Shown: piece after piece, positions 9,855-30,770 of the stretch
Layout of the letters: every line of letters begins with the position of its first letter
How positions within the stretch are numbered: the first letter of the stretch is position 1
From: Streptomyces sclerotialus
GTDB lineage: Bacteria; Actinomycetota; Actinomycetes; Streptomycetales; Streptomycetaceae
Assembly: GCF_040907265.1 (NCBI RefSeq)
Contig: NZ_JBFOHP010000002.1
Span: 6,634,001 to 6,698,000, forward strand
Direction of reading: 5' to 3'
Length of the DNA: 64,000 nt
Position numbers and translations under genes: made by a program
Notes under the pieces: generated by a model
Seen by the model: only the letters and a program-made list of their open reading frames with translations
Databases searched by the model: none
What the model was told of the DNA's origin: nothing

Positions 9855-10415
9855 TCACGCACGGCCCGCGGCGGCGGCGACGGCGTTCCGTACCCGTTCG
9901 GCGATCTCCGCCACCGTGCCGTCGGCGTCGACCGTCAGGAGCAGGTCCGCGTACGTCGCGAGCAGCGGCGCGGTCTGCCTGCGGTACACCCGCAGCCGGT
10001 TGCGGATGACGTCCTCGGTGTCGTCGGGACGGCCGCGGCCGAGCAGGCGGTCCACCACGACCTCCTCGGCCACGGCGAATTCGAGTACGGCGGTCAGCGC
10101 GGTGCCGTCCGCGGCGAGGAGGTCCGCGAGCACGTCGGCCTGCCGGACGGTGCGCGGGTATCCGTCGAGCAGGAAACCGTCGCGGGCGTCCGGCTCGGCC
10201 AGCCGGCCGCGGACCATGTCGTCGGTCAGCTCGTCGGGGACGAGTTCGCCCGCGTCGAGGTAGCGGCGGGCGGCGCGGCCCAGCCGGGTGTCATCGGCCA
10301 GGTGTTGCCTGAACAGGTCGCCGGTGGAGAGGTGCGGCACGCCGAGCCGTTCGCTGAGCAGGGCGGCCTGGGTGCCTTTGCCCGCACCGGGCGGGCCCAC
10401 GAGGACGAAGCGCAT
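9855..10415 (-). CDS. adk: Adenylate kinase (short form), last gene of the mycofactocin-acs gene string
   Basis: 186 residues. Catalyses AMP + ATP to 2 ADP. The P-loop GPPGAGKGTQ is at residues 7-16, the AMP-binding helix has STGDLFR, the NMP segment FLLDGYPRTVRQAD is present, and the LID region is short (GRGRPDDTEDVIRNRLRVYRR), as in zinc-free short-type kinases. The ATG at 10415 is 45 bases after the acs stop on the same strand. This is unlikely to be the essential housekeeping copy, which in streptomycetes sits in the ribosomal protein cluster after secY. Beside an AMP-forming acetyl-CoA synthetase it probably removes the AMP product. Confidence 0.9.
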   Translation of the reverse strand: MRFVLVGPPGAGKGTQAALLSERLGVPHLSTGDLFRQHLADDTRLGRAARRYLDAGELVPDELTDDMVRGRLAEPDARDGFLLDGYPRTVRQADVLADLLAADGTALTAVLEFAVAEEVVVDRLLGRGRPDDTEDVIRNRLRVYRRQTAPLLATYADLLLTVDADGTVAEIAERVRNAVAAAAGRA

Positions 10416-10460
10416 GGGTGAGGGTGCCTTTCGGGGAGGGGCGGGCGGGGAGCGGACGCG

Positions 10461-12392
<1,932 letters not shown>

Positions 12393-12454: not shown

Positions 12455-14062
12455 TCAATGTGGCGCGGGGAGGTTGGCGGAAGGTTGGTGCGCGGGGCGC
12501 GCGGCCTGCCGTGACGGGGCTGACCGGCCACCGGCGGGGCGCCGGGCGGGCACGGTGGCGGCCCGTACGATGCGCGGCAGCAGCGGCCCCGCGGTCCGCC
12601 GGCGCAGCGCGCCGCGCCACACGCCCCAGCCGTACGCGAAGTCGTCCAGCCGCCGGACCGCCACGTGCGTCAGCGGATCCAGGCCCGAGGCGGCCCGCCG
12701 GTGGTCGAGCAGCCCCTCGGCCAGCGCGGCGGCGAGCAGTACCCGACGGGCCCGGCGACTCGCCGCGCCGGCCGCCAGCGCCAGCGGCCAGTGGTGCCGG
12801 GTCGCGCAGCGCAGCAGCTGTTCGGCGGTGCCGCGCAGCCCGGCGAGCGTGAGCAGCGCGGCAGCCCGTACCGGCGTGTCGGCGTCCGGCATCCGGCGGG
12901 CCAGCCGCGCCGCGGTCACCCCGGTCAGCGCCACCGCGGCGGCGGCCGGCAGCGGCCGCCCGCGCAGCAGCAGCGCGCAGGCGGCCACCGACCAGGGCGC
13001 GGCGTGCAGCGGCGGCACCTGCCCGGGGTGCCGCAGGGCCAGTTCGGCGGCACCGGTGCCGTACCCGGCGCGCTGCCCGAGCCAACCGCGCAGGCCGGTG
13101 CGGTGGTGGTGGCCCACGGTGGCGCCGGGTACGTACCGCAGCCGCCAGCCCGCCGCGTACAGCCGCATGCAGAGGTCCACGTCCTCGGCGACGCGGAGCC
13201 GGTGGTCGAAGCCGGCGCCGAGCGCGGCCCGCCGCACGACGAGCGTCGCGCTCGGCACGTACGCGAGCGCCGACAGCGGTACGACGGGTCCTTCCCGCGG
13301 GCCCATGTCCAGCGGCGACCTGACGGCTTCGTACCGGTCTAGGACGCCGCGCCGCACGCCGGGGCCCAGGGGCGCCGCGATGATGCGGGGCGCGGCGAGC
13401 GCCACAGCGGGGTCGGCGAACTGGGCCAGCAGCGGTGCCAGCCAGCCCGGTTCGGGCGCCACGTCGGAGTCGAGGAAGGCGAGGTACGGGGTGGTGGCGT
13501 GCCGCAGCCCGGTGTTGCGGGCCGCGGCGGGGCCGAGGTTGCGGGGGTGGCTCAGCAGGGTGGCGCCGTGCCGGGCCGCCGCGCGCGCCAGCGCCGCGGG
13601 CTCCCGCGACCCGTCGTCGACGACGACCACCGGCAGCCGGGCGGTCTGCGGGTCGGCCCGCAGCCGGGCCAGCAACCGGTCCACGAGGCCGGCCCGGCCG
13701 CGGGCGGGGACGACGACGGTGGTGTGCGCGTTCTCCGTACCGTTCTCCGGGCGCGCGGGTACGGCGCCGGCGGGCGGCCGCGGGTGCACCACGCCGGTGT
13801 CCAGCAGCCGCCGGGCGAGCGCCGCCGAGGTCGGGCCGGTCACGGTGAACCGGCCCCCGTCGAGCAGCCGCGCGGCCGTCGGCCCGAGCCGGAGCAGGCG
13901 GGGCGGCGCGCCGCCGAGCAGCAGCCGCCCGTCACGCGAGCGGTGCGCGTCGGCGGCGAGTTCGACGGCGAAGCCGACGGGCAGCCGGGTGTCCCAGGGA
14001 CCCGGCAGGGGGGTGGGGGCAGGCGTCTCGGCCGTCCTGGCCGTCCTGGCCGTGCTGGTCAT
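12455..14062 (-). CDS. mftF: Mycofactocin system glycosyltransferase MftF
   Basis: 535 residues. MftF adds beta-1,4-linked glucose units to (pre)mycofactocin. After an N-terminal extension of about 110 residues that recognises the cofactor, a GT-A family 2 domain follows: TTVVVPARGRAGLVDRLLARL near residue 115, VVVVDDGSREPAAL, NLGPAAARNTGLRH, and the metal motif YLAFLDSDVAPEPGWL. A later VAEDVDLCMRLYAAGWRLRYV carries the catalytic-base region. Hydrophobic helices follow in the C-terminal third. The start ATG overlaps the stop of the SDR gene by four bases (ATGA), showing translational coupling. The tail after residue 500 is low-complexity and arginine/proline-rich. Confidence 0.93.
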   Translation of the reverse strand: MTSTARTARTAETPAPTPLPGPWDTRLPVGFAVELAADAHRSRDGRLLLGGAPPRLLRLGPTAARLLDGGRFTVTGPTSAALARRLLDTGVVHPRPPAGAVPARPENGTENAHTTVVVPARGRAGLVDRLLARLRADPQTARLPVVVVDDGSREPAALARAAARHGATLLSHPRNLGPAAARNTGLRHATTPYLAFLDSDVAPEPGWLAPLLAQFADPAVALAAPRIIAAPLGPGVRRGVLDRYEAVRSPLDMGPREGPVVPLSALAYVPSATLVVRRAALGAGFDHRLRVAEDVDLCMRLYAAGWRLRYVPGATVGHHHRTGLRGWLGQRAGYGTGAAELALRHPGQVPPLHAAPWSVAACALLLRGRPLPAAAAVALTGVTAARLARRMPDADTPVRAAALLTLAGLRGTAEQLLRCATRHHWPLALAAGAASRRARRVLLAAALAEGLLDHRRAASGLDPLTHVAVRRLDDFAYGWGVWRGALRRRTAGPLLPRIVRAATVPARRPAGGRSAPSRQAARPAHQPSANLPAPH

Positions 14063-14850
14063 CCGTTGAAGCCTCCGTCCGCGTGCAGGACCGAGCCGGT
14101 GACGGCCCCGGCCTCGCGGGCGCAGGCCCACGCGACCACCGTGGCTATCTCTTCCGGCGCCAGCACCCGCCCGACCAGCTGGCTCCTGGCCAGGTCGGCG
14201 GTGTCGTCGAGGTGGTAGAGGTCGGCGGTGGCGCGCAGCATGGCGGTGTCGGTGGAGCCCGGGGAGACCGCGACCGCGTTGACGCCGGTGCCCTGGAGGT
14301 CGCAGGCGAGGCCGCGGACCAGGCCCAGCACGGCGTGCTTGGCAGCGCAGTAGCCGCCCAGGCCCCACAGGCCGCGGTGCGCGGCCGCCGAGGCGAGTGC
14401 CACGAACCGGCCGTGCCGGGGCTCGGGCCTGCGCAGCAGCGCGGGCACGGCGGCGCGCGCCAGATTCAGTACGCCGGTGACGTCCACGTCGAAGAGCGTC
14501 CGCCAGTCCGCTTCGGGCTGTTCCCAGACCGGGCCGCCGCCCAGGATGACCGCGGCCGCCGCCACCGCCGCGTCCAGCCCGCCGAACTCCCGCTCGGCCA
14601 GCTCGACGGCACGGCCGAGCGCGCCGGCGTCGCGCACGTCGGCCCGTACGGCGCGTACGTCGGTGAACTCGTCTTCCAGGGCGGCAAGTTGCTGAGGGTT
14701 CGCCAGGGGGTAGGGCACACCGGGGTCGTCCGCGCAGGCGTCGACCGCGACCACCGCCCAGCCCTCGCCCGCCAGTCGCCGTACGACCGCGGCGCCGATG
14801 CCCCGTGCGGCGCCGGTGACCACGGCCACCCGCCGTTCCGGCCGCGTCAT
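14059..14850 (-). CDS. Mycofactocin-coupled SDR family oxidoreductase
   Basis: 263 residues. Classical short-chain dehydrogenase: nucleotide loop VVTGAARGIGAAVVRRLAGEG at residues 9 to 29, catalytic serine in VALASAAAHRGLWGLGGYCAAKHA with Tyr-x-x-x-Lys as YCAAK, and a C-terminal TGSVLHADGGFNG. The insertion after the first beta-alpha-beta unit, typical of the mycofactocin-dependent subgroup, is thought to bury the NAD cofactor so that it is re-oxidised in place by mycofactocin instead of exchanging. It overlaps both neighbours by four bases, so it is made with mftE and mftF. Its substrate is unknown; carveol-type and other secondary alcohols are known for the family. Confidence 0.92.
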   Translation of the reverse strand: MTRPERRVAVVTGAARGIGAAVVRRLAGEGWAVVAVDACADDPGVPYPLANPQQLAALEDEFTDVRAVRADVRDAGALGRAVELAEREFGGLDAAVAAAAVILGGGPVWEQPEADWRTLFDVDVTGVLNLARAAVPALLRRPEPRHGRFVALASAAAHRGLWGLGGYCAAKHAVLGLVRGLACDLQGTGVNAVAVSPGSTDTAMLRATADLYHLDDTADLARSQLVGRVLAPEEIATVVAWACAREAGAVTGSVLHADGGFNG

Positions 14851-15611
14851 CGTGCTCCCTCCGGCACCGCGCCGGGCCGCTGTGCGCGCCGGGAACCCAG
14901 CCGGCCGCCCTCGTCCACCTGCCAGCCGCCCGCGTCCGCCGCCAGCCGCTCGGCCATCCCGGCGAGCAGCCGTTCCCCTTCCGACGCGTGCGCCCCGGCC
15001 GGGTCACCGAGTACGCCCGAGGGGCTGACCGCGCGGACGGAGCTCGCCCTCAGCCGCGGCAGCAGTTGGCCGAGGGGATCGGTGGCCCCGGCGACCGCGC
15101 GGCCGGTGCGTACCGCCTCCGGCCGCAGCCGCAGCATCATCGACGTCTCGGTGCGCCCGGCGTGCGCGTCGGAGCCCGGCGGTACGCACGGCCACCAGGC
15201 GGCGTCCCGGCCCTCGTACCGCAGCCGTGCCACCGCCCGGGACAGCGCCTCGACGTTGCCGCCGTGGCCGTTCACCAGCAGCAGCCGCCCGGCCCAGCGC
15301 AGCAGCGAGCGCCCGAGCTCCAGGACCAGCAGTTCCAGCGCGGCCTGCCCGAGGGAGACCGTGCCGGCGAACCCTTCGTGCTCGCCGCTCGCCCCGTACG
15401 GCTGGACCGGCGCGACCACCACGTCCACCGGGGCTGCCGCGGCCACGAGCCGCGCCGCGGACCGCTCGGCGACGGCGCCCGCCACCGCGGCGTCGGTGTC
15501 CAGCGGCAGGTGCGGGCCGTGCTGCTCGCAGGAGCCGAGGGGGAGGAGTACGAGGGGGCCGCGGTCCGTGAGGTCCGGCCAGGCCAGGCCGGCAAGGTGC
15601 GCGGCCGGCAT
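14847..15611 (-). CDS. mftE: Mycofactocin peptidase MftE (creatininase family)
   Basis: 254 residues. Creatininase-family metalloprotease that cleaves the modified MftA peptide to release the Val-Tyr-derived dipeptide (AHDP). Metal ligands are visible in LGSCEQHGPHLPLDTDAAVA near residue 28 and in LLLVNGHGGNVEALSRAV near residue 113. Its ATG at 15611 lies immediately after the mftD stop (one base between) and its stop overlaps the SDR start. Length and order agree with other mft loci. Confidence 0.95.
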   Translation of the reverse strand: MPAAHLAGLAWPDLTDRGPLVLLPLGSCEQHGPHLPLDTDAAVAGAVAERSAARLVAAAAPVDVVVAPVQPYGASGEHEGFAGTVSLGQAALELLVLELGRSLLRWAGRLLLVNGHGGNVEALSRAVARLRYEGRDAAWWPCVPPGSDAHAGRTETSMMLRLRPEAVRTGRAVAGATDPLGQLLPRLRASSVRAVSPSGVLGDPAGAHASEGERLLAGMAERLAADAGGWQVDEGGRLGSRRAQRPGAVPEGAR

Positions 15612-15612
15612 C

Positions 15613-16785
15613 TCAGACCGCGCCCAGGGTGCGGGTGAAGCCGGGCGGGACCACCACGTCGTCGCGGGTCAGCTCGTGGACGGACGAGCGGCCGAGGCCC
15701 AGCAGGGCGGAGTCGATGCCGCCGCGCAGGATGTCGAGCACGTTCTCCACCCCCGCCTGGCCGTTCGCGGCCAGGCCCCACAGGTAGGCGCGGCCGATCA
15801 TGACGGCCTTCGCGCCGAGCGCCAGCGCCTTGACCACGTCGCTGCCCCGGCGGACACCGCTGTCCAGCAGCACCTCGATCCGGTCGCCCACCGCGTCCGC
15901 GACGGCCGGCAGTACGCGGATCGGGGCCGGGGTGCCGTCGAGGTTGTTGCCGCCGTGGTTGGTCACCGAGATCGCGGTGACCCCGGCGTCCACCGCGCGC
16001 CGGGCATCGTCCACCCGGCAGACGCCCTTGAGCAGGAACGGCCCGTCCCACTGCTCGCGCAGCCAGCGCACGTCCTCCCACGAGGGCGGCGGGGTCTGCA
16101 TCCACTCGCCGTAGGCCCCGAAGAACGTGGGCGCGTCCTGCCCCGGCTCGCTGAGGTTGGGTGTCGTCAGGTCGGGCAGGCTGCGGGACCTGACGAAGTC
16201 ACGCAGCCAGCGCGGGCGCGCGAGCGCCTCCGGGGCGAACCGCGCCATCGCCTTGAGGTCCAGCCGCTCGGGAATCTTCGGGCTGCCCCAGTCCCGGCCG
16301 TGCGAGAAGGACCAGTCGAGCGTGACGATCAGCGCCTTGGCCCCGGCCTCGCGGGCGTGTGCCATCCGCCGGAGCATGGCGTCCCGGGTCCCCATCCAGT
16401 ACATCTGGAAGAACGTCCGCGGGTTGGCCGCGACGACGTCCTCCAGCGGCTTGCTGGCGAAGGAGCTCAGGCCCATCGCCGTGCCGCGGGCCGCGGCCGC
16501 GCGGGCCACGGCCACCTCGCCGTCGGGGTGCACCGCCTGCACACCGGTCGGGGAGATGATCACCGGCAGCGCCAGCTGCTCGCCCAGGACCGTCGTCGCC
16601 ATCTCCCGCTTGGCCGACAGCCCGGCGACGTGCGGGGCGAACCCGAGCTGCGCGAAGGCCGCGGTGTTGTCGTCGTAGGAGACGCCCTTCTCGGAACCGG
16701 CGAGCAACGCGCTGTAGACGGATTTCGGCAGCCGCTTCCTGGCCCTGCGCTGGGCCTCCGCCACCGTCTCGAACCAACCGCTCAT
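15613..16785 (-). CDS. mftD: Pre-mycofactocin synthase MftD (FMN-dependent)
   Basis: 390 residues. Member of the L-lactate dehydrogenase/glycolate oxidase FMN family that deaminates AHDP to pre-mycofactocin, creating the redox-active alpha-keto lactam. The TIM barrel is complete: substrate/FMN segment VIISPTGVQAVHPDGE near residue 95, ISVTNHGGNNLDGTPAPI containing the catalytic histidine region, then LLDSGVRRGSDVVKALALGA and the FMN phosphate loop MIGRAYLWGL. The mftC stop lies 61 bases upstream and mftE follows one base after the stop. Confidence 0.96.
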   Translation of the reverse strand: MSGWFETVAEAQRRARKRLPKSVYSALLAGSEKGVSYDDNTAAFAQLGFAPHVAGLSAKREMATTVLGEQLALPVIISPTGVQAVHPDGEVAVARAAAARGTAMGLSSFASKPLEDVVAANPRTFFQMYWMGTRDAMLRRMAHAREAGAKALIVTLDWSFSHGRDWGSPKIPERLDLKAMARFAPEALARPRWLRDFVRSRSLPDLTTPNLSEPGQDAPTFFGAYGEWMQTPPPSWEDVRWLREQWDGPFLLKGVCRVDDARRAVDAGVTAISVTNHGGNNLDGTPAPIRVLPAVADAVGDRIEVLLDSGVRRGSDVVKALALGAKAVMIGRAYLWGLAANGQAGVENVLDILRGGIDSALLGLGRSSVHELTRDDVVVPPGFTRTLGAV

Positions 16786-16846: not shown

Positions 16847-18085
16847 TCACCGCGGGTCCACGTCGAAGAGCGGGCTGGTGTCGCACGGCTTGGCCGGGAC
16901 GCGTACGGACGGCATGCCCAGGGACACCGGGCGCGGCGTGGGGCTCGTACGGTGCGAGTGGTCCTTGCCCTGCGGCGGCAGCGCCTGCCGGTCGACGGCG
17001 GCCAGCGCGGCGGTGCCGTGGCCCTTGACGCACTCCGGGTCCGGGCCGTCCAGCGGCAGCCCGGTGAAGAACTTCGCGGCCATGCAGCCGCCCTGGCAGA
17101 CGTCGAACGCCGAACAGGACGTGCACGCGCCGGCGGCCTGCTCGCCGCGCAGCCGCGCGAAGAGCGCCGAGGAACGCCACACCTCGTCGAAGCCGCCGGG
17201 CGAGCGGACGTTCCCCGCCTTGAAGGCGTCGTGGAGGGCGAACGGGCAGGCGTACACGTCGCCCACCGGGTCGATCAGGCAGACCACCCGCCCGGCGCCG
17301 CACAGGTTCAGGCCGGGTATCGGCGTCGAGCCGAGCGCGTTGAGGTGGAAGAAGGAGTCGCCGGTCAGCACCTTCTCGCCGTTGGCGACCAGCCACCGGT
17401 ACAGCTCGCGCTGCTGCGCGTCCGTGGGGTGCAGCTCGTCCCACACGTCAGCGCCGCGGCCCGAGGGGCGCAGCCGGGTGAGGCGGAGCTGCGCCCCGAA
17501 CCGGTCGGCGAGGGCGGCGAAGGCGTCGAGCTGCGGGATGTTCTGACGGGTCATCACCACCGAGATCTTGAAGTCGGCGAAGCCGGCCGCCGCCAGGTTC
17601 TCCATCGCGCGCAGCGCCATGTCGTACGAACCGGGCCCGCGTACCGCGTCGTTGACCTCGCGGGTCGCACCGTCCAGGGAGATCTGGACGTCGACGTAGT
17701 CGGTGGCGGCCAGCCGCGCGGCGCGCTCCGGGGTGAGCCGCAGCCCGTTGGTGGAGAACTTCACGCCCACCTGGTGTGCGATCGCGTAGTCCAGCAGTTC
17801 CCAGAAGTCCGGGCGTACGGTCGGCTCGCCGCCGCCGACGTTCACGTAGAACACCTGCATCCGCTGCAGTTCCCGGATCACCGACTTGATCTCGTCGGTG
17901 GTCAGCTCCATCGGGTCCCGCCGGCCCGAGGAGGACAGGCAGTGGGCGCAGGACAGGTTGCACGCGTAGGTCCACTCCCAGGTCAGGCAGATCGGGGCGT
18001 GCAGGCCGCCCTTGAACTGCTCGACCAGGGCCGGGACCGGCCCGTCGTGCGGGGCTTCGGGCGGGGCTTCGTAGAGGGTGGTCAT
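16847..18085 (-). CDS. mftC: Mycofactocin radical SAM maturase MftC
   Basis: 412 residues from ATG 18085; GTG 18088 is one codon longer. Radical SAM/SPASM enzyme that oxidatively decarboxylates the C-terminal tyrosine of MftA and cross-links it to the preceding valine. The 4Fe-4S cysteines are C42, C46 and C49 (YACNLSCAHC), and the SAM-binding GGE is in FYVNVGGGEPTVRPDFWEL. The SPASM region carries further cysteines: LCGAGRVVCLIDPVGDVYAC and CTSCSAFDVCQGGCMA near residues 285-350. A GGAG ribosome site nine bases upstream lies in a stretch of 11-bp repeats. Confidence 0.96.
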   Translation of the reverse strand: MTTLYEAPPEAPHDGPVPALVEQFKGGLHAPICLTWEWTYACNLSCAHCLSSSGRRDPMELTTDEIKSVIRELQRMQVFYVNVGGGEPTVRPDFWELLDYAIAHQVGVKFSTNGLRLTPERAARLAATDYVDVQISLDGATREVNDAVRGPGSYDMALRAMENLAAAGFADFKISVVMTRQNIPQLDAFAALADRFGAQLRLTRLRPSGRGADVWDELHPTDAQQRELYRWLVANGEKVLTGDSFFHLNALGSTPIPGLNLCGAGRVVCLIDPVGDVYACPFALHDAFKAGNVRSPGGFDEVWRSSALFARLRGEQAAGACTSCSAFDVCQGGCMAAKFFTGLPLDGPDPECVKGHGTAALAAVDRQALPPQGKDHSHRTSPTPRPVSLGMPSVRVPAKPCDTSPLFDVDPR

Positions 18086-18096
18086 CACCGGACTCC

Positions 18097-18150: not shown

Positions 18151-18426
18151 TCACTGCGGGATGATCATGTCCGCGGCGGCCAGCGAGGCGAGGGCGCGCA
18201 GGAAGGCGGTGCGCCGCTGCCCGGGGACGCGGTCCAGCGCCTCGGTCACGCTGGGGTGCCGGTCGAGCCCGGTGACGAGCTCGACGAGTTCGGGTGCCTT
18301 CAGGAAGGACAGCCGCCGGTTGCCGAAGTGGTACGCCAGCGCCCCGAACGGCTCGGGGCGCAGTGCGACACTCGGGTTGAGCCGGTAGGGCCGTCCGGCG
18401 TCGAAGGGGCCACAGGGGGAGGGCAC
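18151..18426 (-). CDS. mftB: Mycofactocin peptide chaperone MftB
   Basis: 91 residues, GTG start nine bases after the mftA stop. RiPP recognition element (PqqD-like winged helix) that binds the MftA leader and delivers it to MftC. Visible features are YRLNPSVALRPEPFGALAYH, then NRRLSFLKAPELVELVTGLD, and a C-terminal helical part ending in IIPQ. The matching length and position between mftA and mftC make the assignment secure. Confidence 0.93.
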   Translation of the reverse strand: MPSPCGPFDAGRPYRLNPSVALRPEPFGALAYHFGNRRLSFLKAPELVELVTGLDRHPSVTEALDRVPGQRRTAFLRALASLAAADMIIPQ

Positions 18427-18668: not shown

Positions 18669-18690
18669 GCCCCCTCCGATCGGACGGGGC
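18669..18690. promoter_or_regulatory. Palindrome with TCCGATCGGAC core, candidate shared operator
   Basis: Perfect 10-bp core tccgatcgga, extended to 22 bp with one mismatched pair. It lies about 102 bases from mftA and 132 bases from the dehydrogenase start. The same core, TCCGGTCGGAC, occurs at 27376-27393 between the second alcohol dehydrogenase and its divergent regulator. Confidence 0.45.
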
Positions 18691-20115: not shown

Positions 20116-20149
20116 ACCGCAGCCGAGTCCGACCCACAGCCGCGTCGGG

Positions 20150-21385: not shown

Positions 21386-22924
21386 GTGGAGAGCGGCCTG
21401 CACCGGTTCGTGCGCATCCTGCGCCTGTACGGCCTGCGGGTGTCGGTGTCGGAGGCGATGGACGCGATGCGCTGCGCGGCCCAGCCCGGCGTGCTGGCCG
21501 ACCGGGAGACGCTGCGCGAGGCGCTGCGGCTGGCGCTGGTGAAGGACCGGCGGGACGACGCGGTGTTCGACGAGCTGTTCACCGCGTTCTTCTCGCTGCG
21601 CCCGCTCGGCGAACGGGACGACGGGCACGGGCACACCCATGAGCACGACGACCTCACCGACACCGGAGCCCTGGAGTCCTTCACCGTCTCCGAGGAGCCC
21701 TCGGAGACCCCGCAGCAGGGGCACAGCCACGGCAAGCCGGCCGACATCCGGGACTACTTCGACCAGCGTGACCTGGCCGAGCAGTACAACCTCCACCAGG
21801 AGGCCAACAAGATCGACCTGGCGTCGATGACGGACGAGATCGTGCTGTCCAAGGACGGCGCGCGGGCGGGCGGTGAGGACGTGCCCTCCGTGCAGCTGGA
21901 GACCGAGCGGCTGCACGGCGCGGGCATCCCCGGCGAGCTGTCCGCCGCGACCGGCCACCGGATCGACACCGAACTGTCGGTCGCCCAGCAGGACGCCCTC
22001 CTCGGGTGGCTCGCGACCGGTGACGACACGGACGACCTGGACCGGGAGGCGCTGGACGCGCTGCGCCGCCGTCTCGCAGGCACCCTCGACAACCTTCCCG
22101 AGCTGCTGAAACGCCACCTCGACCGGCTCGCCGAGCTGGAGTCGGCCGCCGTGGAGACCCGGATCGCCGAGCAGGTACGGGCCGAGCGCGTCGACGAGGA
22201 CGAGCGGGCCGAACTGGAGGAGGCGCTGCGCCGGGTGGCGCGGTCCCTGCACGGCGCGCTGACCAGCCGGAAGCGCCCGACCCCGCGCGGCCGGGTGCAC
22301 CCGGGCCGCACGATGCGCCGGAACATGCGGTACGACGGCGTACCGTTCCGCCCGGTCACCGTCACCCGCGCCGAGGACAAGCCGCGCCTCGTCGTCCTCG
22401 CCGACGTCTCGCTCTCCGTACGGTCCACCGCCCGCTTCACCCTGCACCTCGTGCACGGCCTGCAGTCGCTCTTCGCGCAGGTGCGGACCTTCGCCTTCGT
22501 CGACGAACCGACCGAGATCACCGAGCTGTTCGCCGAGCACCCGCTGGAGCGCGCGCTCGGCCTGGTCTTCGACGGCCTCCCGGCCGGCGGCCTGCTCGAC
22601 ACCGACGCCAACTCCGACTACGGCCGCGCCTTCGACCTGCTCCTGGCGGACCACGGCGGCGCCTTCAACCGCCGCACCACGTTCCTCGTACTCGGCGACG
22701 GCCGCGGCAACGGCAACGACCCGGGCATCGACGCCTTCGCCGAGCTGACCCGCCGCGTCCGGCAGACCCTGTGGCTCACCCCCGAGCCGCGCTACTCCTG
22801 GGGCCTGGGCGCGTGCGACCTGCCGCGGTACGCGGAGTTCTGCGACCGCGTGCAGGTCGTCGGCGACCTCGCCGGGCTGCGGCGCACGGCCGACCGCATC
22901 GCGGCGGAGGTGACGGGCCGGTGA
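21386..22924 (+). CDS. VWA (CoxE-like) protein with His-rich segment
   Basis: 512 residues, GTG start 13 bases after the moxR stop, with GAGGGGG upstream. The C-terminal third is a von Willebrand A domain with a MIDAS motif, LVVLADVSLSVRSTARF (D-x-S-x-S), near residue 335, and DLLLADHGGAFNRRTTFLVLGDGRG later. The N-terminal part resembles CoxE. A His/Asp-rich stretch, DDGHGHTHEHDD, is at about residues 74-85. With the MoxR ATPase it probably forms a maturation or metal-insertion complex for the adjacent dehydrogenase. The stop overlaps the next start by four bases (GTGA). Confidence 0.88.
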   Translation: MESGLHRFVRILRLYGLRVSVSEAMDAMRCAAQPGVLADRETLREALRLALVKDRRDDAVFDELFTAFFSLRPLGERDDGHGHTHEHDDLTDTGALESFTVSEEPSETPQQGHSHGKPADIRDYFDQRDLAEQYNLHQEANKIDLASMTDEIVLSKDGARAGGEDVPSVQLETERLHGAGIPGELSAATGHRIDTELSVAQQDALLGWLATGDDTDDLDREALDALRRRLAGTLDNLPELLKRHLDRLAELESAAVETRIAEQVRAERVDEDERAELEEALRRVARSLHGALTSRKRPTPRGRVHPGRTMRRNMRYDGVPFRPVTVTRAEDKPRLVVLADVSLSVRSTARFTLHLVHGLQSLFAQVRTFAFVDEPTEITELFAEHPLERALGLVFDGLPAGGLLDTDANSDYGRAFDLLLADHGGAFNRRTTFLVLGDGRGNGNDPGIDAFAELTRRVRQTLWLTPEPRYSWGLGACDLPRYAEFCDRVQVVGDLAGLRRTADRIAAEVTGR

Positions 22925-23856
22925 CCGCGCCCGACCGGCTCCGGCTCGCCGCCACCGCCATCGACCCGCTCGCCCCGCACCGCCCTGGCCACTACGCCGA
23001 CCATCTGGTCAGCGTGGTCCGCGCGGGCACCCGCGAGAATGCCGGCGCCCCGGAACCCCCGGTCGTACGGACGGACCATTTCTGCTTGCGCCGCCGTGCC
23101 CACCGGATCGAGGTGACCCACCGGATCGCCCCGGAAGCGCTCGACAACGATCTGGCCGGGCTGCTCGCCGGGGAGCTGTTCGCGCCCGGCTGGCTGTCCG
23201 GGCCCGACGTCTTCGAGCGGGTCTTCACGGGGGTGGTGCGCTCCTGCGTGGACGGCCCGGTCCGCTCCTGGAGCCGGTTCTACGACAACACCCTGGCCCG
23301 CATCCGCGCCTGCTGGGAGGCGGCGGAGCCCGCCGGGCACTCCTCGATCGCCGGGTTCACGCCGGTCTACCGCCGCACCCTGGACCTGGTGCCGCCCGGC
23401 ACCGTCCTGGACCTCGGCGCCTGCTTCGGCTTCCTCGCCCTGCTGCTCGTCGGACGGCGGCCGCGGGACACGCACACCGTCCTCGCCTCCGACGTGTCAC
23501 CCGGCACGATGCGGCTGCTCGAAGCGGTCGCGGAGGCCCGCGGGACGCCGTTGCGCACCCTCGCCTGCGACGCCGCGCGGGTGCCGCTCCCGGACCGCTC
23601 CGTGGACACCGTCACCGCCATCCACCTGCTGGAACATCTCGACCCTCGGCACGGCACCGCGGTCGTGACCGAAGCCCTGCGGCTGGCCCGGCGGCGGGTG
23701 GTGATCGCGGTGCCGTACGAGGACGAGCCGACCGCGGCGTACGGGCACGTCCGCAGCTTCGACCGGGACCAGCTCACCGCGCTCGGCCGGGCCACCGGGC
23801 GCCCTTTCACCGTCACGGACTTCCACGGCGGCTGGCTGGTGCTCGATCCGGCCTGA
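22921..23856 (+). CDS. mftM: Probable mycofactocin oligosaccharide methyltransferase MftM
   Basis: 311 residues, GTG at 22921 coupled to the VWA gene. The C-terminal half is a SAM-dependent methyltransferase: motif I TVLDLGACFGFLALLLV near residue 160, ASDVSPGTMRLLEAVAE, then DTVTAIHLLEHLDPRHGTAV and the post-motif region. The N-terminal 140 residues (HYADHLVSVVRAGTREN onward) are unlike generic methyltransferases. MftM methylates the second glucose of the mycofactocin glycan in mycobacteria, and its gene there lies beside the same dehydrogenase and two-component genes. The assignment rests on context and overall look, so it is probable and not certain. Confidence 0.75.
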   Translation: MTAPDRLRLAATAIDPLAPHRPGHYADHLVSVVRAGTRENAGAPEPPVVRTDHFCLRRRAHRIEVTHRIAPEALDNDLAGLLAGELFAPGWLSGPDVFERVFTGVVRSCVDGPVRSWSRFYDNTLARIRACWEAAEPAGHSSIAGFTPVYRRTLDLVPPGTVLDLGACFGFLALLLVGRRPRDTHTVLASDVSPGTMRLLEAVAEARGTPLRTLACDAARVPLPDRSVDTVTAIHLLEHLDPRHGTAVVTEALRLARRRVVIAVPYEDEPTAAYGHVRSFDRDQLTALGRATGRPFTVTDFHGGWLVLDPA

Positions 23857-23875: not shown

Positions 23876-24586
23876 TCAGATCACACCCATCTTGCTCGCC
23901 TCGTACACCGCCTCGGCCCGGCTCGCCGCGTCCAGCTTCCGCATGATGTTGCGGACGTGGAACTTCACCGTGGTCTCGGAGATGTAGAGCCGGGTGCCGA
24001 TGTCGCGGTTGCTCAGCCCCCGGGCGAGCAGTTCCAGCACCCGCAGTTCCCGCTCGGTGAAGACCGGCCGGTCGGCCGGCGGCCGCATGGACCGCACCAT
24101 CGCGGCCGCCGAGCGGGAGTCGAAGGCGCTCTCGTTGCGGGCCACGGCCCGGATGGAGCGCAGCAGTTCGGTGGTGTCCACGTCCTTGACCACATAGCCG
24201 CGCGCGCCGTGCTGGATCGCGCCCACCACCAGCGCGTCGTCGAGGAAGGTGGTGAGGACGAGGACCGCGAGGCCCGGATGGCGCTCGGTGAGCCGCGCGC
24301 ACAGCTCCAGGCCCTCCGCGTCGGCCCCGGTGGACAGCTTCAGGTCCAGCAGCACGATGTCGGGGCCGGTGCGCTCGGTGACGGCGACGGCCTCCGCCGC
24401 CGTGCTGGCCTCCCCGACGATCTCCAAATCCGGCTCCCGCTCCAGGATGGAGCGCAGCCCCTGCCGGACGATCGCGTGGTCGTCGACGAGGACGACCCGC
24501 ACCCGTGCGGTGGCCTCGGCGGCCGCGGCGGCCGGCGCGTCGGACGTGCGCTGCTCTGTGGTCATCGGGGTCGTCTCACTGGTCAT
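23876..24586 (-). CDS. NarL/LuxR-type response regulator, MnoR/MadR-like
   Basis: 236 residues from ATG 24586, which has GGAGGA upstream and overlaps the kinase stop; ATG 24607 is less likely. Receiver domain: VRVVLVDDHAIVRQGLRSIL at about 30-49, phospho-acceptor Asp in GPDIVLLDLKLSTG, and the switch lysine in GYVVKDVDT. C-terminal LuxR helix-turn-helix: FTERELRVLELLARGLSNRD through SETTVKFHVRNIMRKL. The MnoSR system of Mycobacterium smegmatis, encoded in the same context, controls mno and mft genes, so this regulator probably activates mftA, the NDMA-linked dehydrogenase and the second alcohol dehydrogenase. Convergent with mftM. Confidence 0.88.
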   Translation of the reverse strand: MTSETTPMTTEQRTSDAPAAAAAEATARVRVVLVDDHAIVRQGLRSILEREPDLEIVGEASTAAEAVAVTERTGPDIVLLDLKLSTGADAEGLELCARLTERHPGLAVLVLTTFLDDALVVGAIQHGARGYVVKDVDTTELLRSIRAVARNESAFDSRSAAAMVRSMRPPADRPVFTERELRVLELLARGLSNRDIGTRLYISETTVKFHVRNIMRKLDAASRAEAVYEASKMGVI

Positions 24587-26021
24587 CGGGGTCCTCCGGA
24601 TCGGCACGGACCGGCAGCGGAATCTCCACCCGCAGCTGGATGCCGCCCAGCCGCGCCCGCCGGATGGACAGGGCGCCGCCCAGTTCCTCGGCCCTGGCCA
24701 GCATGTTGGCCAGCCCGCGGTGGCGGCCCGACAGGTCGGCGGCCCGGCACAGCCGCAGCGCCCGCCGGAGCTGCGCCGGGTCGCCGGTACCGTCGTCCGA
24801 CACGCTCAGCACGACGGTGTCCGGGCGGTATCCCAGATGGATCACGGCCCGGCCGGCCCCGCCGTGCGCCGCCGCGTTGAACAGCGCCTCGCCGGCCAGC
24901 CGCAGGAGTGACTGCTCGGCATGCGGTGGCAGTGGCACGGGACTGCCCGCCACCCGTACGCGCACCTCCAGCTCGGACCGGAGATGGACCGACGACAGGC
25001 GTTCCAGCATCACCGGGAGCGGTCCCGGCGGCTCGTCGGAGGTGTGGTGCAGCGCGTAGATCGCGGCCCGCAGCTGTTCCACGGCCTGCCGGTTGAGGTC
25101 CTTGGCGGCCGAGAGCCGGTCGGCGACATCCGCCACCGGGCCGCCCAGCGCGGCCAGTTCGGCCCGGCACACCTCCATCGTCATGCCCGCGCTGAGCACG
25201 TACTGCGTGACGCTGTCGTGCAACTCCCGGGCGATGCGGTGGCGTTCGTCGTCCAGCGCCTGCCGCTGCATCGCCTCGACCAGCCGCGCCTGCGTCTCCG
25301 CCAGCTCGGCGCTGCGTGCCGCGAGGTCCTTCGCCTGCCGGGCGGCGGCCTCGGAGAGCTGTTCCGTACGGCCGCGCAGCCGGGTCGCGGAGTGGAAGAG
25401 GTAGGAGTTGTGCAGTGCGACGGCCGCCTGGTTCGCGAGGACGCGCAGGATCGCCAGGTCGGTGTCGGCCACTTCGAGCCCACTGCCGGGCTGTGCCGCG
25501 ATGCCGCCCACCGGCTCGTCGTCCAGCGTCATCGGGGCCCGCACCCAGCCGTCGCCGCCGCCCGCCGCCTCCGCCTCCCACGGCCGGGTCCGCAGCACCA
25601 CCAGGTGCGCGCGTACGTCGGCGGGCAGCCTGGTCTCGTCGTCGATCAGCACGTCGTCGGCGAGCAGCAGGAACCGCGGCCGGGCGGCGCGCAGCGCACC
25701 GTCCGCCACCGCCAGCAGCAGCCGGCGCGCCTGAAGGTGCTCGGCCGCTGCCCGTACCACCGCCTCGACCAGCGCCCGCGGGCCTTCGGCCGTACGGACC
25801 AGGGCGCGGGAGATGCCGTCCAGCGCCTCCACGGCCCGCTCCAGGCGTTCGGTGGAGCGGACGTACGCCGGGTAGAAGGACCGTTTTCCCGAGCGCAGAC
25901 CTGTGAGCGCGCCCAGATCCGTCCCGGCGCCTGGACCCTGACGGGTATCCGTCCCGGCGCCCGGCCGCTGACCTGCATCCGTCCCGACACCTGTTCCTGG
26001 TCCCTGACCTGCGTAGTTCAT
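24576..26021 (-). CDS. GAF-domain sensor histidine kinase, MnoS/MadS-like
   Basis: 481 residues, no transmembrane segments, so a cytosolic sensor. A Gly/Thr/Asp-rich N-terminus with three imperfect repeats (GTDAGQRPGAGTDTRQGPGA) precedes a GAF domain (about 75-220), a coiled coil, the HisKA_3 box with the phospho-histidine in RHRIARELHDSVTQYVLSAG near residue 275, and an HATPase domain with GEALFNAAAHG, DDGTGDP and GRHRGLANMLARAEELGG. It overlaps the response regulator by 11 bases. The N-terminal repeats come from a DNA repeat at about 25915-25990. It probably senses an alcohol or aldehyde; the ligand is unknown. Confidence 0.9.
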   Translation of the reverse strand: MNYAGQGPGTGVGTDAGQRPGAGTDTRQGPGAGTDLGALTGLRSGKRSFYPAYVRSTERLERAVEALDGISRALVRTAEGPRALVEAVVRAAAEHLQARRLLLAVADGALRAARPRFLLLADDVLIDDETRLPADVRAHLVVLRTRPWEAEAAGGGDGWVRAPMTLDDEPVGGIAAQPGSGLEVADTDLAILRVLANQAAVALHNSYLFHSATRLRGRTEQLSEAAARQAKDLAARSAELAETQARLVEAMQRQALDDERHRIARELHDSVTQYVLSAGMTMEVCRAELAALGGPVADVADRLSAAKDLNRQAVEQLRAAIYALHHTSDEPPGPLPVMLERLSSVHLRSELEVRVRVAGSPVPLPPHAEQSLLRLAGEALFNAAAHGGAGRAVIHLGYRPDTVVLSVSDDGTGDPAQLRRALRLCRAADLSGRHRGLANMLARAEELGGALSIRRARLGGIQLRVEIPLPVRADPEDPDDQ

Positions 26022-26031: not shown

Positions 26032-27231
26032 TCACAGCGCCGCGCGGAAGAGCGCCTCGATGTCCTGCGCCCCGGCGTCCCGCGGATTGGTGGCCAGGCA
26101 GGCGTCCTTGAGCGTGGTCCTGGCCAGCCGCGGCAGATCGGTCTCGGCGACGCCGAGGCTGGCCAGGCCCTTCGGCACGCCCACGTCGTCCGCGAGCGCC
26201 CGGACCCGTTCGGCCAGCGCCAGTGCCGCTTCCTCCGGCGGTACCCCGTCGGTGGGCAGTCCGGCCGCTTCCGCCAGCGCGACGAAGCGGTCCGGGCGGG
26301 CCGCCGCGTTGAAGCGGATCACATGCGGCAGCAGCACGCCGTTGACCACGCCGTGCGGTGCGTCCAGCAGGCCGCCGACCTGGTGGCTCATCGCATGCGT
26401 CGCGCCCAGGATCGCGTTGGTGAAGGCCATCCCCGCCTCCAGCGAGCCCTGCGCCATCGCCAGCCGCGGGCTGACCTCTTTGGGCCGTACCTGTGTGCCC
26501 ACCAGGTGGCCGGTGATCAGCTGGACGGCGTGCAGCGCGAGGGTGTCGGTGAGCGGATTGTGCGCCCGGGAGACGAACGACTCGATGGCGTGCGTGAGGG
26601 CGTCCAGGCCGGTCGCGGCGTTCAGCCAGTCCGGCATGGTGGTCAGCAGCCGCGGATCGATCAGCGAGATCTCCGGCACCAGCGTCCGGCTGATGATCGT
26701 GATCTTCACCTGCTCCGCGGTGTCCGTGATCACCGCGAACTGTGAGACGTCCGCGCCCGTACCGGACGTGGACGGCACCATCACCGTCGGCGGGATCGGC
26801 AGCCCCACCAGGTCCACGCCCTCGAAGTCCAGGATCCGGCCGCCGTTGCTGGCGAGGATCGCCACGCCCTTCGCCGCGTCGATGCACGACCCGCCGCCCA
26901 GCGCGATGATCACATCGCTGCCGCTCTCCGCGTAGCACTGGAAACCGGCCTCCACCTCGTGGTCCTTCGGGTTCGGCGTCACCGCGTGCCACACCACGGG
27001 GCGCAGCCCCACCTGCCGCAGATGACCGACCGCCTCGTCCACCCAGCCCGCCTCGATCAGGCCCGGGTCCGTGACGAGGAACGGGCGGCGGCCTCCGATA
27101 CGCAGCGCGCAGTGGCCCAGCTCCGCCAGCGAACCGGGCCCGAACACGACCTCGGGCGCATGGAACTTGGCCAGTTGTGCGGGGGCCGCTTCCGTACCGC
27201 CGGCCGTCACGGTGCCGTTCGACAGCGGCAT
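26032..27231 (-). CDS. Iron-containing alcohol dehydrogenase, 1,3-propanediol dehydrogenase-like
   Basis: 399 residues; ATG 27231 with AGGAGG seven bases upstream. Group III dehydrogenase fold: DVIIALGGGSCIDAAKGVAI near residue 100, VPSTSGTGADVSQFAVITDT near 145. The metal ligands are in NAATGLDALTHAIESFVS (Asp-x3-His) and in LGATHAMSHQVGGLLDAPHG. It reads directly into the kinase gene (10-base gap), so alcohol dehydrogenase, sensor and regulator form one operon. In Mycobacterium smegmatis the matching gene was annotated as a 1,3-propanediol dehydrogenase under the same two-component control. Whether it is NAD-exchanging or mycofactocin-linked cannot be told from sequence. Confidence 0.9.
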   Translation of the reverse strand: MPLSNGTVTAGGTEAAPAQLAKFHAPEVVFGPGSLAELGHCALRIGGRRPFLVTDPGLIEAGWVDEAVGHLRQVGLRPVVWHAVTPNPKDHEVEAGFQCYAESGSDVIIALGGGSCIDAAKGVAILASNGGRILDFEGVDLVGLPIPPTVMVPSTSGTGADVSQFAVITDTAEQVKITIISRTLVPEISLIDPRLLTTMPDWLNAATGLDALTHAIESFVSRAHNPLTDTLALHAVQLITGHLVGTQVRPKEVSPRLAMAQGSLEAGMAFTNAILGATHAMSHQVGGLLDAPHGVVNGVLLPHVIRFNAAARPDRFVALAEAAGLPTDGVPPEEAALALAERVRALADDVGVPKGLASLGVAETDLPRLARTTLKDACLATNPRDAGAQDIEALFRAAL

Positions 27232-27375
27232 GCACCCTCCTGGAATGGGGGTCTGTGCTCCGGGCGCGGAGCGCAGTATTTTTACGGTTCACCGATCAAT
27301 AACACCCTCGTCACATGCGCACAACGCTAGAGGCGGCGGGGGTGGGCGCAATACCGTCCACCGGGACGGGGAGAT

Positions 27376-27393
27376 CCTGTCCGGTCGGACAGG
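27376..27393. promoter_or_regulatory. Palindrome cctgtccg-gt-cggacagg, candidate shared operator
   Basis: Perfect 8-bp arms around two central bases. The core TCCGGTCGGAC matches the one between mftA and the dehydrogenase (18669-18690) except for one base. It sits 145 bases from the alcohol dehydrogenase start and 98 from the GAF-regulator start, similar to the distances at the other site. Confidence 0.5.
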
Positions 27394-27428
27394 TGCGCTA
27401 CGGAAGCTGCCGGGGGACGATTATTGGT

Positions 27429-27491: not shown

Positions 27492-28748
27492 ATGTCAGCA
27501 GTGCGGAGTGACCTCCGGCAGCGCAGAGCCGCGCTGGAGAACGAATGGTCCCGCTGGGTCCCGGAGCTGCGGACGGCCCGGCGGGCGGTGGACGGGAAGG
27601 CACCGCTGCGCCGCGAGGTGACCGAGTCCTGGGTCCGCTCGCTGCATACGGTGGACCCCGGCGTCGGCAGCGCCCCGGTCACCGACGGCGGTGAGGTACG
27701 GCCCCGGTGGGCGGAGTCGCCGCTGCGGCGGCCGGTCGACGACCTCGCCGACGAGCTGAACAGCATCGCCGACGACGCCGGATTCGTCGCCGGCGTCACG
27801 GACGAGTCCGGCACCCTCCTGTGGACCTGCGGCGGCCGCGTCATGCGGCGGCGCGCCGAGCGGGTCAACTTCGCGCCCGGCGGCCGCTGGGACGAGCAGG
27901 CCATGGGCACCAACGCCCTCTCCCTCGCGCTGCGCACCGGCCGTCCCAGCGCCGTCTTCTCCGCCGAGCACCTGGTCGCCGCGCTGCACGGCTGGGCCTG
28001 CTACTGCGCCCCGATCCACGCCCCCGACGGCCGCATCCTCGGTGTCCTGGACCTGTCGACGACCTGGGACCGCTCGCACCCGCTCGCCATGTCCACCGTC
28101 CGCACCCTGGTCTCCACCATCGAGACCCGGCTCCGCGCCGACCTCGGTGAGCGACGGCGAAGCGGTACGGCGGCGACCGGCGCGTCCGGCGTCCGGCTGA
28201 CCTGTCTCGGTACGGAGGAGGCCGTACGCGGCGGCGCCCGAATGCGGCTGCGCCCCCGCCAGCTGGAGATCCTCACCCTGCTCGCGCTGGAGCCGGCGGG
28301 GTACACCCCGGAGCGGCTGCGGGACGCGCTGTACGGCGAACGCCCGGTGACCGCCTCGACGTTCAAGGCGGAGGTGTCCCACCTGCGGCGCGCCCTCGGC
28401 GGCGCGGTCGCCACCCGCAGATACGCGCTGACCACGCCCGTCGCCTGCGACGCCGCCGAGGTGCTGCGGGCGCTGGCGGCGGGCGACCTGGACGGGGCGC
28501 TGTCCCGGTACAGAGGCCCGCTGCTGCCGCAGTCCGAGGCGCCGGGCATCGTCGCCTGGCGCGAGCACCTGGAGGTCGCGGTGCGCGAGGCGGTGCTGGC
28601 CAGCGCCGTACCGGAACACGCGCTCGACTACGGAGCGCGCGCCCCGCACGACGCCGAGATCCACCAGCACGCGCTCTGTGTCCTGCCACCGGGCGACCCC
28701 CGCCGGGCCCTCGCGGCGGGCCGCCTGAGCACCGCGCTGCGCGACTGA
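27492..28748 (+). CDS. GAF-domain transcriptional regulator with C-terminal BTAD-like winged helix
   Basis: 418 residues; ATG 27492 (GTG 27501 is an alternative, neither has a strong ribosome site). Residues about 40-215 match the N-terminal part of AcoR-type activators, with the GAF region [17 protein letters not shown] and [20 protein letters not shown]. The usual sigma-54 AAA domain is absent; instead the protein ends in a winged-helix/BTAD-like part ([18 protein letters not shown], then [19 protein letters not shown]). It lies just upstream of aldehyde dehydrogenase, which it probably activates in response to an aldehyde or alcohol. Its last codons are part of a 20-bp direct repeat running into the intergenic region. 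Confidence 0.8.
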
Positions 28749-28848: not shown

Positions 28849-30366
28849 ATGGTGTACGCGCAGCCCGGCACAGAAGGCAGCGTCGTCAGCTTCGAGCAGC
28901 GTTACGACAATTTCATCGGCGGCGACTGGGTCGCGCCGGTGAAGGGCCAGTACTTCGACAACCCCTCACCGGTGGACGGCCGGACGTTCACGCAGGTCGC
29001 GCGGTCCACCGCGGCCGACGTCGAGCTCGCGCTGGACGCCGCGCACGCGGCCGCGCCGAAGTGGAGCCGCACCTCCACCACGGAGCGCGCCAACCTCCTC
29101 AACAAGATCGCCGATCGCATCGAGGAGCACCTCGAAAAGCTCGCGGTCGCCGAGACCTGGGAGAACGGCAAGCCGGTCCGCGAGACGCTGGCCGCCGACC
29201 TGCCGCTGGCCGTGGACCACTTCCGCTACTTCGCGGGCGCCGTACGCGGCCAGGAGGGCTCGATCTCCGAGATCGACGCCGACACCGTCGCGTACCACTT
29301 CCACGAGCCGCTCGGCGTCGTCGGCCAGATCATCCCGTGGAACTTCCCGCTGCTGATGGCCACCTGGAAGCTCGCTCCCGCGCTGGCGGCCGGCAACTGC
29401 GTGGTCATCAAGCCCGCCGAGCAGACCCCGGCCAGCATCCTGGTCCTCATCGACCTGATCGCCGACCTGCTGCCGCCGGGCGTGGTCAACGTCGTCAACG
29501 GCTTCGGCGTGGAGGCCGGCAAGCCGCTGGCGTCCAGCCCGCGGATCGCCAAGGTCGCGTTCACCGGCGAGACCACCACGGGCCGCCTGATCATGCAGTA
29601 CGCCAGCGAGAACATCATCCCCGTCACGCTGGAGCTGGGCGGCAAGAGCCCGAACATCTTCCTGCCCGACGTCATGGCCGCCGACGACGACTTCCTGGAC
29701 AAGGCCGTCGAGGGCTTCGTGATGTTCGCACTCAACCAGGGCGAGGTGTGCACCTGCCCGTCCCGGGCGCTCATCCACGCCTCGATCTACGACGAGTTCA
29801 TGGCCCGCGCCGTCGAGCGGACGAAGGCGATCACCAGCGGCAGCCCGCTGGACCCGGCGACCATGATCGGCGCGCAGGCCAGCAACGACCAGTTCGAGAA
29901 GATCCTCTCCTACATCGACATCGGCAAGAAGGAGGGCGCCGAGCTGGTCACGGGCGGTGCCTCCCGGACCGTCGAGGGCTACGAGGGCGGTTACTACATC
30001 GAGCCGACGATCTTCCGCGGCACCAACGACATGCGGATCTTCCAGGAGGAGATCTTCGGCCCGGTCGTCTCGGTGACCACGTACGACTCGGTCGACGAAG
30101 CCCTGAAGATCGCCAACGACACGCTCTACGGCCTCGGCGCCGGCGTGTGGACCCGCGACGGCAACACCGCCTACCGCCTCGGCCGCGAGATCAAGGCCGG
30201 CCGGGTGTGGACCAACTGCTACCACGCCTACCCCGCGCACGCGGCGTTCGGCGGCTACAAGAACTCCGGCATCGGCCGGGAGAACCACAAGATGATGCTC
30301 GACCACTATCAGCAGACCAAGAACCTGCTGGTCAGCTACTCGGCGAAGAAGCTCGGGTTCTTCTGA
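28849..30366 (+). CDS. NAD(P)-dependent aldehyde dehydrogenase (ExaC/AcoD type)
   Basis: 505 residues; ATG 28849 after CCCGAGGAGCGCC. Oxidises acetaldehyde and related aldehydes to acids. Signature elements: [19 protein letters not shown] and the lysine in [10 protein letters not shown] for NAD binding, catalytic Glu in [17 protein letters not shown] near residue 263, catalytic Cys in [18 protein letters not shown] near residue 302, and [14 protein letters not shown]. Translationally coupled to the DUF779 gene (stop and start overlap). Physiologically it links the alcohol dehydrogenases of this region to acetyl-CoA synthetase. Confidence 0.95.
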
Positions 30367-30770
30367 TGGGGACCCGCACCCGACGTGTCGAACTGACGCC
30401 GGCCGCCGAGGATCTGGTGTGCCGGCTGACGGAGACGCACGGTCCGGTGATGTTCCACCAGTCCGGCGGCTGCTGCGACGGCAGCGCCCCGATGTGCTAC
30501 CCGCGCGGTGAGTTCAAGGTCGGGGCCGCCGACGTCCTCCTCGGCCACGTCTCCGAGGACGTGCCGTTCTGGATGAGCGCCGACCAGTTCGCCTACTGGC
30601 AGCACACCCACCTCACCGTCGACGTCGTACCGGGCAGGGGCAGCGGCTTCTCGCTGGAGGCCCCCGAGGGGGTCCGCTTCCTCATCCGCTCCCGGCTGCT
30701 CACCGACGGGGAACTGGCCCGCATCGAGGCCGAGCCGCCGCTCCCCACGGGTGCCGACACCGCCGGTTGA
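30366..30770 (+). CDS. DUF779 domain protein
   Basis: 134 residues, ATG overlapping the aldehyde dehydrogenase stop (TGATG). The domain carries a conserved cysteine-rich patch, MFHQSGGCCDGSAPMCYPRG near residues 29-48, suggestive of metal or redox-cofactor binding. Genes of this family commonly follow ExaC-type aldehyde dehydrogenases, so a role in dehydrogenase maturation, protection or aldehyde handling is likely, but the function is not established. Confidence 0.9.
   Translation: MGTRTRRVELTPAAEDLVCRLTETHGPVMFHQSGGCCDGSAPMCYPRGEFKVGAADVLLGHVSEDVPFWMSADQFAYWQHTHLTVDVVPGRGSGFSLEAPEGVRFLIRSRLLTDGELARIEAEPPLPTGADTAG

Follow-up and report, generated by a model that had tools for sequence, protein, structure and literature searches.

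The analysed stretch of DNA (hereafter, the window) covers 64,000 nucleotides of the 8.28-Mb genome of Streptomyces sclerotialus (G000) and holds an island of genes for mycofactocin, a peptide-derived cofactor, whose biosynthetic row continues on the same strand into genes for an adenosine monophosphate (AMP)-forming acetyl-CoA synthetase (acs) and a short-lid adenylate kinase (adk). On the minus strand, the gene order is mftA-mftB-mftC-mftD-mftE-SDR-mftF-acs-adk, where SDR denotes a mycofactocin-coupled short-chain dehydrogenase/reductase, and the row mno-madB-madC-mftM runs divergently on the plus strand. Beyond mftM lie madR, madS and a second Fe-dependent alcohol dehydrogenase gene (adh2) on the minus strand, and genes for a GAF-domain regulator, an ExaC-type aldehyde dehydrogenase (aldh) and a DUF779 protein on the plus strand. 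An earlier note on this DNA had described a complete mycofactocin alcohol-oxidation island; all of the genes it named were recovered at or near where it had placed them, most of them above NCBIfam cut-offs, and madB, madC, mftM, the GAF-domain regulator and the DUF779 gene are added here. Left of the island, 7.4 kb of the window match Streptomyces niger NRRL B-3857 at approximately 90% identity. The features are as follows:

18436..18567, minus: mftA, mycofactocin precursor of 43 residues with the C-terminus VEEVSIDGMCGVY (translation; TIGR03969, 45.7 bits, cut-off 25)
18151..18426, minus: mftB, peptide chaperone (TIGR03967, 103.9 bits, cut-off 33)
16847..18088, minus: mftC, radical SAM maturase (TIGR03962, 638.6 bits, cut-off 265)
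15613..16785, minus: mftD, pre-mycofactocin synthase (TIGR03966, 718.3 bits, cut-off 470.85)
14847..15611, minus: mftE, peptidase (TIGR03964, 321.5 bits, cut-off 172)
14059..14850, minus: mycofactocin-coupled SDR oxidoreductase (TIGR04504, 385.8 bits, cut-off 250; NF040491, 369.6 bits, cut-off 265)
12455..14062, minus: mftF, glycosyltransferase (TIGR03965, 479.3 bits, cut-off 280; start picked by inspection)
10461..12392, minus: acs, AMP-forming acetyl-CoA synthetase of 643 residues (TIGR02188, 928.5 bits, cut-off 724.95)
9855..10415, minus: adk, short-lid adenylate kinase of 186 residues (NF001381, 223.9 bits, cut-off 187)
18670..18689, no strand: candidate MadR/MnoR operator 1, in the mftA-mno space (weight-matrix score 23.1)
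18823..20115, plus: mno, methanol/alcohol dehydrogenase dependent on N,N-dimethyl-4-nitrosoaniline (NDMA) (TIGR04266, 685.1 bits, cut-off 625)
20090..21373, plus: madB, AAA ATPase (open frame, real start probably further in; NF047784, 381.8 bits, under the cut-off of 475)
21386..22924, plus: madC, VWA-domain protein (NF047783, 277.3 bits, under the cut-off of 600)
22921..23856, plus: mftM, mycofactocin oligosaccharide methyltransferase (NF041255, 365.5 bits, cut-off 200; start by analogy with locus L068)
23876..24607, minus: madR, MnoR-type response regulator (open frame, match from residue 36; NF047785, 350.7 bits, cut-off 300)
24576..26021, minus: madS, MnoS-type sensor kinase (NF047786, 614.3 bits, cut-off 500)
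26032..27231, minus: adh2, second Fe-dependent alcohol dehydrogenase-like protein (PF00465/PF25137)
27375..27394, no strand: candidate MadR/MnoR operator 2, in the adh2-regulator space (weight-matrix score 27.7)
27492..28748, plus: GAF-domain transcriptional regulator (PF01590; DhaR model far under cut-off)
28849..30366, plus: aldehyde dehydrogenase of the ExaC (acetaldehyde) type (NF050026, 972.5 bits, cut-off 900)
30363..30770, plus: DUF779 protein (PF05610, 163.1 bits)

MftA ends in GVY, as expected of the precursor, and stands together with MftB and MftC, while the NDMA-type dehydrogenase, MadS and MadR are all present at curated cut-offs. The adh2 product passes its Pfam cut-off only, its best NCBIfam match (ErcA) being below cut-off (470.1 of 550 bits), and the regulator passes the cut-off of the GAF domain only.

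Occurrence, identity and descent of the acs-adk pair

Of the 392 genomes searched from the genus, 28 proved to carry mftC, as did 113 of 394 from the class. Here, 18 window proteins were compared against 128 stretches (all 28 genus places besides the window's own, plus 100 of the 113 further class places), with acs required to be at least 60% and adk at least 50% identical. Three stretches hold acs and adk after mftF, and all three also hold mno; a search of named genomes with MftF, taken to the best 80 of 321 relatives, yielded 10 with acs and adk. Within the stretches read, both genes are present in 13 of 22 distinct mno-bearing mft loci (the window added, and L068 and L176, which are one strain, counted once), as against neither gene in any of the 186 fetched mft loci without mno, some of which are short stretches and in which species may recur between the genus/class and named-genome sets. 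Contig ends cut several stretches short in both sets; in two cases (L186 and L187) the stretch ends 460 and 140 bp past mftF, and acs and adk lie together on another contig of the same genome. The comparison points to acs-adk as a conserved, mno-restricted part of the mft island family. The earlier note knew of no other mft operon ending in acs-adk; the same tail is found in 12 distinct Streptomyces islands, the window included, with linkage retained at adk identities of 64–92%. The synteny check that it had proposed thus ties the pair to mno loci and rejects the idea that it is unique to the window.

Other mft arrangements were also observed. One genome of the genus (G117) has two mft loci, the island (C1, 8.30 Mb, on an 8.7-Mb contig) and an SDR-bearing one (C2, 0.11 Mb, on a 343-kb contig). 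Rhodococcus loci (such as L196, L197 and L199–L202) carry a regulator (~35% identical) and an aldehyde dehydrogenase (~75%) behind mftF, and the link between aldh and mft is therefore wider than the island.

The island Acs scores 928.5 bits on the AcsA model (cut-off 724.95) versus 596.3 on that of propionate-CoA ligase (cut-off 955), and can be aligned with solved acetyl-CoA synthetases over nearly its full length, including the WWQTETG and PKTRSGKIM motifs. Both motifs were kept in 12 of the 12 relatives checked, of which only 3 have YTSGTTGKPKG letter for letter. The island Adk aligns end to end with the solved short adenylate kinase 1p4s, and its four motifs are likewise kept in 12 of 12 relatives; family scores and motifs alike place the two proteins among the AcsA and Adk enzymes. 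They belong to the same families as the housekeeping enzymes but are second copies. A housekeeping-type acs above cut-off lies elsewhere in G000 and is 69% identical to the island acs, while a longer housekeeping adk at 3.83 Mb, 46% identical overall and 58% over the first 128 residues, rejects the short-lid gene as the sole adk of the genome. In five comparisons, the ratio of nonsynonymous to synonymous substitution rates (dN/dS) was 0.17–0.41 for adk and 0.20–0.25 for acs, similar to the mft genes, which indicates that the pair is under purifying selection.

A short adk was detected in 6 of the 392 genus genomes (E at most 1e-48), four times at an mft island and twice (G157 and G267) amid unrelated genes. 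The surroundings of these two orphans (L256 and L257, respectively) comprise a permease as well as beta-lactamase-fold and FMO-like genes. In an Adk tree of 26 rows, 15 island copies, including that of Actinomadura, and the two orphans form one group, whose support of 94/95 narrowly misses the starred level; the Saccharopolyspora short-type and the long-lid enzymes fall outside it. This topology is consistent with one recruitment of the island short adk. Independent use of the short adk by the two orphan-bearing genomes was considered and thought unlikely; since they fall within the island clade, though with modest support, the orphans are likelier to be remnants.

Sixteen further adk-like loci (L280–L295) were read, up to 1.5 kb per side. 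One of them, from Saccharopolyspora elongata (L294:1-2506), holds the row ExaC-type aldh-DUF779-adk-acs on a contig other than that of the mft locus. This adk is of the long type with ADK_lid, and in the tree it falls among the long-lid enzymes, at the tip of a long branch of unsure placement; the neighbouring acs runs off the end of the stretch, leaving 62 residues for comparison (50% identical), and the genome has a short adk elsewhere as well. The row is apparently a second pairing of adk with acs. A weak AMP-ligase match at L293 (38% over 103 residues) was not counted as a pairing. The ExaC-type acetaldehyde dehydrogenase and DUF779 genes are adjacent in the window and in S. elongata alike, whereas the pair in the window is further tied to mft and mno through a common palindrome.

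Transcription unit and candidate operator

In the window, mftF and acs are separated by 62 bp and acs and adk by 45 bp. No terminator-like site was found on the operon strand across mftF-acs-adk, which is weak evidence because shuffles give only 1.4 sites on both strands, and neither gap (62 and 45 nt) has a stronger fold than its shuffled versions (z 0.75 and 0.77). The stretch past adk folds strongly (z −2.36), and its role as a terminator is unsure because the tail of a convergent methyltransferase gene reaches into the hairpin. The promoter scan gave no sigma-70-type site on either strand (0.1 expected). Gap sizes, common strand and the lack of a terminator-like site would fit a single transcript from mftA to adk. 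In the window and the loci closest to it, acs and adk are about 50 bp apart; at L069 (16956–17630), L179 and L185, an SDR-like frame of 217–228 residues lies between the two genes, and similar frames, inside longer frames, are seen at L181 and L192. The family-library match made for the L069 frame is to a short-chain dehydrogenase.

The space between mftA and mno contains a palindrome near CCCTGTCCGATCGGACAGGG in the window as well as in 20 relatives; in many of the relatives it is doubled, with the copies mostly 51–54 bp apart, and in L117 and L184 it is weak. A weight matrix trained on mftA-mno spaces other than those of the window and its two closest relatives scored 23.1 at 18670 and 27.7 at 27375, compared with 6.8 for the best place elsewhere in the 64 kb and 19.6 for the highest score in 60 simulated sequences. 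The 27375 site lies in the adh2-regulator space, which was never part of matrix training, and recurs in L260, L262 and L263, all three other genomes with this space at hand. With a pattern built from both sites, which therefore match it by construction, no third place was found in the 8.28-Mb genome at 0–1 mismatch; at up to three mismatches, there were 375 matches on both strands versus 219 for the reversed control. In a test trained on sites of Streptomyces and the nearest island kin, a score of at least 15 was reached by 24 of 24 loci with mno/mad genes versus 5 of 184 without, and by every held-out locus among the 24 (7 of 7: L098, L117, L120, L136, L146, L189 and L190). The search for an operator between the end of mftF and adk came up empty, with best scores of −1.4 in the window and 9.2 among nine relatives.

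In Mycobacterium smegmatis, the MnoR site is reported as single-copy, 137 bp upstream of mno (PMC11303327), while the palindrome of the window lies 133 bp from mno. Position and conservation mark this palindrome as a candidate MadR/MnoR operator. Because it sits in both divergent promoter regions, at the reported distance from mno, and none was found ahead of acs or adk, mft-acs-adk and mno probably share one such operator.

Proposed alcohol regulon and its alternatives

Here, we propose, with a probability of roughly 0.72, that the island is a MadRS (MnoSR)-controlled alcohol regulon that leads from ethanol to acetyl-CoA and recycles its own AMP, for which we infer induction, substrate and co-transcription. 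In the presence of alcohol, MadR would bind at 18670 and 27375, the candidate operator sites of the two divergent promoter regions, and switch on mno-madB-madC-mftM, mftA-F with the SDR gene and, via read-through, acs and adk, as well as adh2-madS-madR and regulator-aldh-DUF779. MftA-F and MftM would yield a methylated mycofactocin that serves as electron acceptor for the NAD held tightly by Mno, and this dehydrogenase would convert ethanol and further short alcohols to the corresponding aldehyde. Acetaldehyde would then be oxidised to acetate by the ExaC-type enzyme, Acs would convert acetate to acetyl-CoA, AMP and pyrophosphate, and the dedicated Adk would turn AMP and ATP into two ADP, sparing an adenylate drain at high flux. 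The reaction chemistry of Acs, Adk and aldehyde dehydrogenase is established.

The conserved mno-linked acs-adk, the paralogs and the recurring candidate operator favour the earlier note's view of a unit that converts alcohols to acetyl-CoA, which is tempered by those mno-mft islands that lack the pair. In M. smegmatis, growth on ethanol is reported to require mft and MSMEG_6242 (Mno) (PMC6529628), mnoSR mutants are impaired on ethanol and 1,3-propanediol (PMC11303327), and acetate is released to the medium during ethanol use (PMC11778925). Co-induced Acs and Adk would be expected to counter such an acetate spill.

The Mno family is named after methanol, and the M. smegmatis Mno/MnoSR system is reported to be used for methanol and 1,3-propanediol as well (PMC11303327), so that the unit might mainly serve another alcohol (methanol, 1-propanol or 1,3-propanediol), with Acs acting on the matching acid or on a side flow only. 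This is unlikely in light of the Acs scores (928.5 bits on AcsA, well above 724.95, versus 596.3 on propionate-CoA ligase, below 955) and of an aldehyde dehydrogenase that passes the acetaldehyde (ExaC) model. As is established, methanol carbon also has no entry via Acs.

Several observations weigh against the proposed regulon. The window has a single palindrome copy in its mftA-mno space where many relatives have two, MadB and MadC fall below curated cut-offs (381.8 of 475 and 277.3 of 600 bits) though these are their best matches, and not one of 21 genomes, island-bearing or sister, has MftG above cut-off. The distance between acs and adk is 0.5–0.85 kb in 7 of 13 loci, a count in which L068 and L176 are both included and the window is left out. 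In Actinomadura madurae, the pair lies 2.9 kb from mftF with an opposite-strand aldh in between, and the stretch from mftF to acs-adk has no operator (best 5.8). The mno-mft island of Streptomyces sp. GC420 (L182) lacks acs over the 3.7 kb that follow mftF, and its assembly contains no short adk, and the pair is not at the locus in Thermocatellispora (L180), two Saccharopolyspora (L189 and L190), L098, L117 and L120; because some mno-mft loci are without it, the pair is dispensable. Finally, two genus genomes (G157 and G267) hold a short adk without adjacent island genes.

The detached pair in Actinomadura, the islands without it and the two orphan adks would also fit acs-adk being mere neighbours, namely a pair for general acetate scavenging that came to lie behind mftF with its own promoter. 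We consider this rather improbable, since the linkage is held in the 12 Streptomyces islands at 64–92% adk identity, the pair occurs at none of the 186 fetched mft loci without mno, the orphans nest in the island clade (with modest support) and are likelier remnants, and the 62-bp mftF-acs gap has no terminator-like site. That Adk serves a purpose besides the AMP of Acs, such as adenylate balance under alcohol stress or another nucleotide substrate, is very doubtful: the dN/dS of adk exceeds that of acs in three more distant pairs, but adk lies behind acs on the same strand in all 13 loci with both, a different adk type stands beside acs and aldh in S. elongata, and the adenylate kinase motifs are intact.

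The proposed MadRS regulon has mno, a second Fe-dependent alcohol dehydrogenase and MadS/MadR in common with the mno operon of M. smegmatis (MSMEG_6242-6236: mno, MSMEG_6239, mnoS, mnoR), MadS/MadR being equated with MnoS/MnoR by position, not by sequence comparison. Whereas the M. smegmatis site is single-copy at mno, the window has a second site between adh2 and aldh, and its first also faces mft-acs-adk. With the mycofactocin clusters (mftABCDEF) of mycobacteria, Rhodococcus and others, the window shares all six core genes, the coupled SDR and mftM, but its cluster ends in acs-adk and has a promoter region common to mno.

The earlier note had also reported mftR and mftG as absent from the window, and neither is among the window genes scanned with NCBIfam (for part of them at E of at most 1e-40), a few genes being Pfam-only or unscanned and no genome-wide MftR search having been made. 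For MftG (TIGR03970), the best score in G000 is 329.8 of 387.45 bits, 1.4 Mb away, and "complete" is too strong a word for the island because MftG is not above cut-off in the genome. MftG is above the TIGR03970 cut-off within ~5 kb of mftC in the three comparison genomes G454, G558 and G255, the last from the same genus; TIGR04542 gave no match anywhere, control included, and is hence uninformative. MftG is reported in 75% of cases and is thus common, not universal (PMC11778925); it is not a defining gene, and membership of the window in the mycofactocin clusters therefore stands. Sub-threshold GMC proteins are present in the island and sister genomes and could provide the exit for mycofactocin electrons. 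Elsewhere in the window, an Rv2578c-family radical SAM protein (1870-2943) scores above cut-off outside the island, and neither an Rfam match nor a tRNA (ARAGORN) was found in the window.

The individual parts of this system are already known. Within the literature searched, the acs-adk extension, cofactor synthesis beside an mno-type operator and the repeated acs-adk-aldh pairing appear new. No paper joining mycofactocin with acetyl-CoA synthetase or adenylate kinase was found, in a search that would miss other wordings and most subscription journals, and the available part of the 2011 mft cluster survey does not contain "adenylate", "kinase" or "acetyl-CoA" (PMC3023750). It is an even bet that, in a streptomycete/Actinomadura lineage, MadRS took over cofactor production, with one operator for mycofactocin biosynthesis and the dehydrogenase; that the cofactor operon was extended by acs and a dedicated AMP-recycling adk; and that the adk-acs-aldh pairing arose at least twice, in the short-lid islands and in the long-lid S. 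elongata. Such repeated pairing would suggest that, in fast alcohol use, the clearing of AMP genuinely limits acetate activation by the AMP-forming route. The proposed regulon raises the question of what becomes of mycofactocin electrons when an island has no recognised MftG. It would offer a bounded, testable alcohol-to-acetyl-CoA regulon dependent on a peptide-derived cofactor outside mycobacteria, as well as genomic grounds for regarding adenylate kinase as an enzyme dedicated to one pathway.

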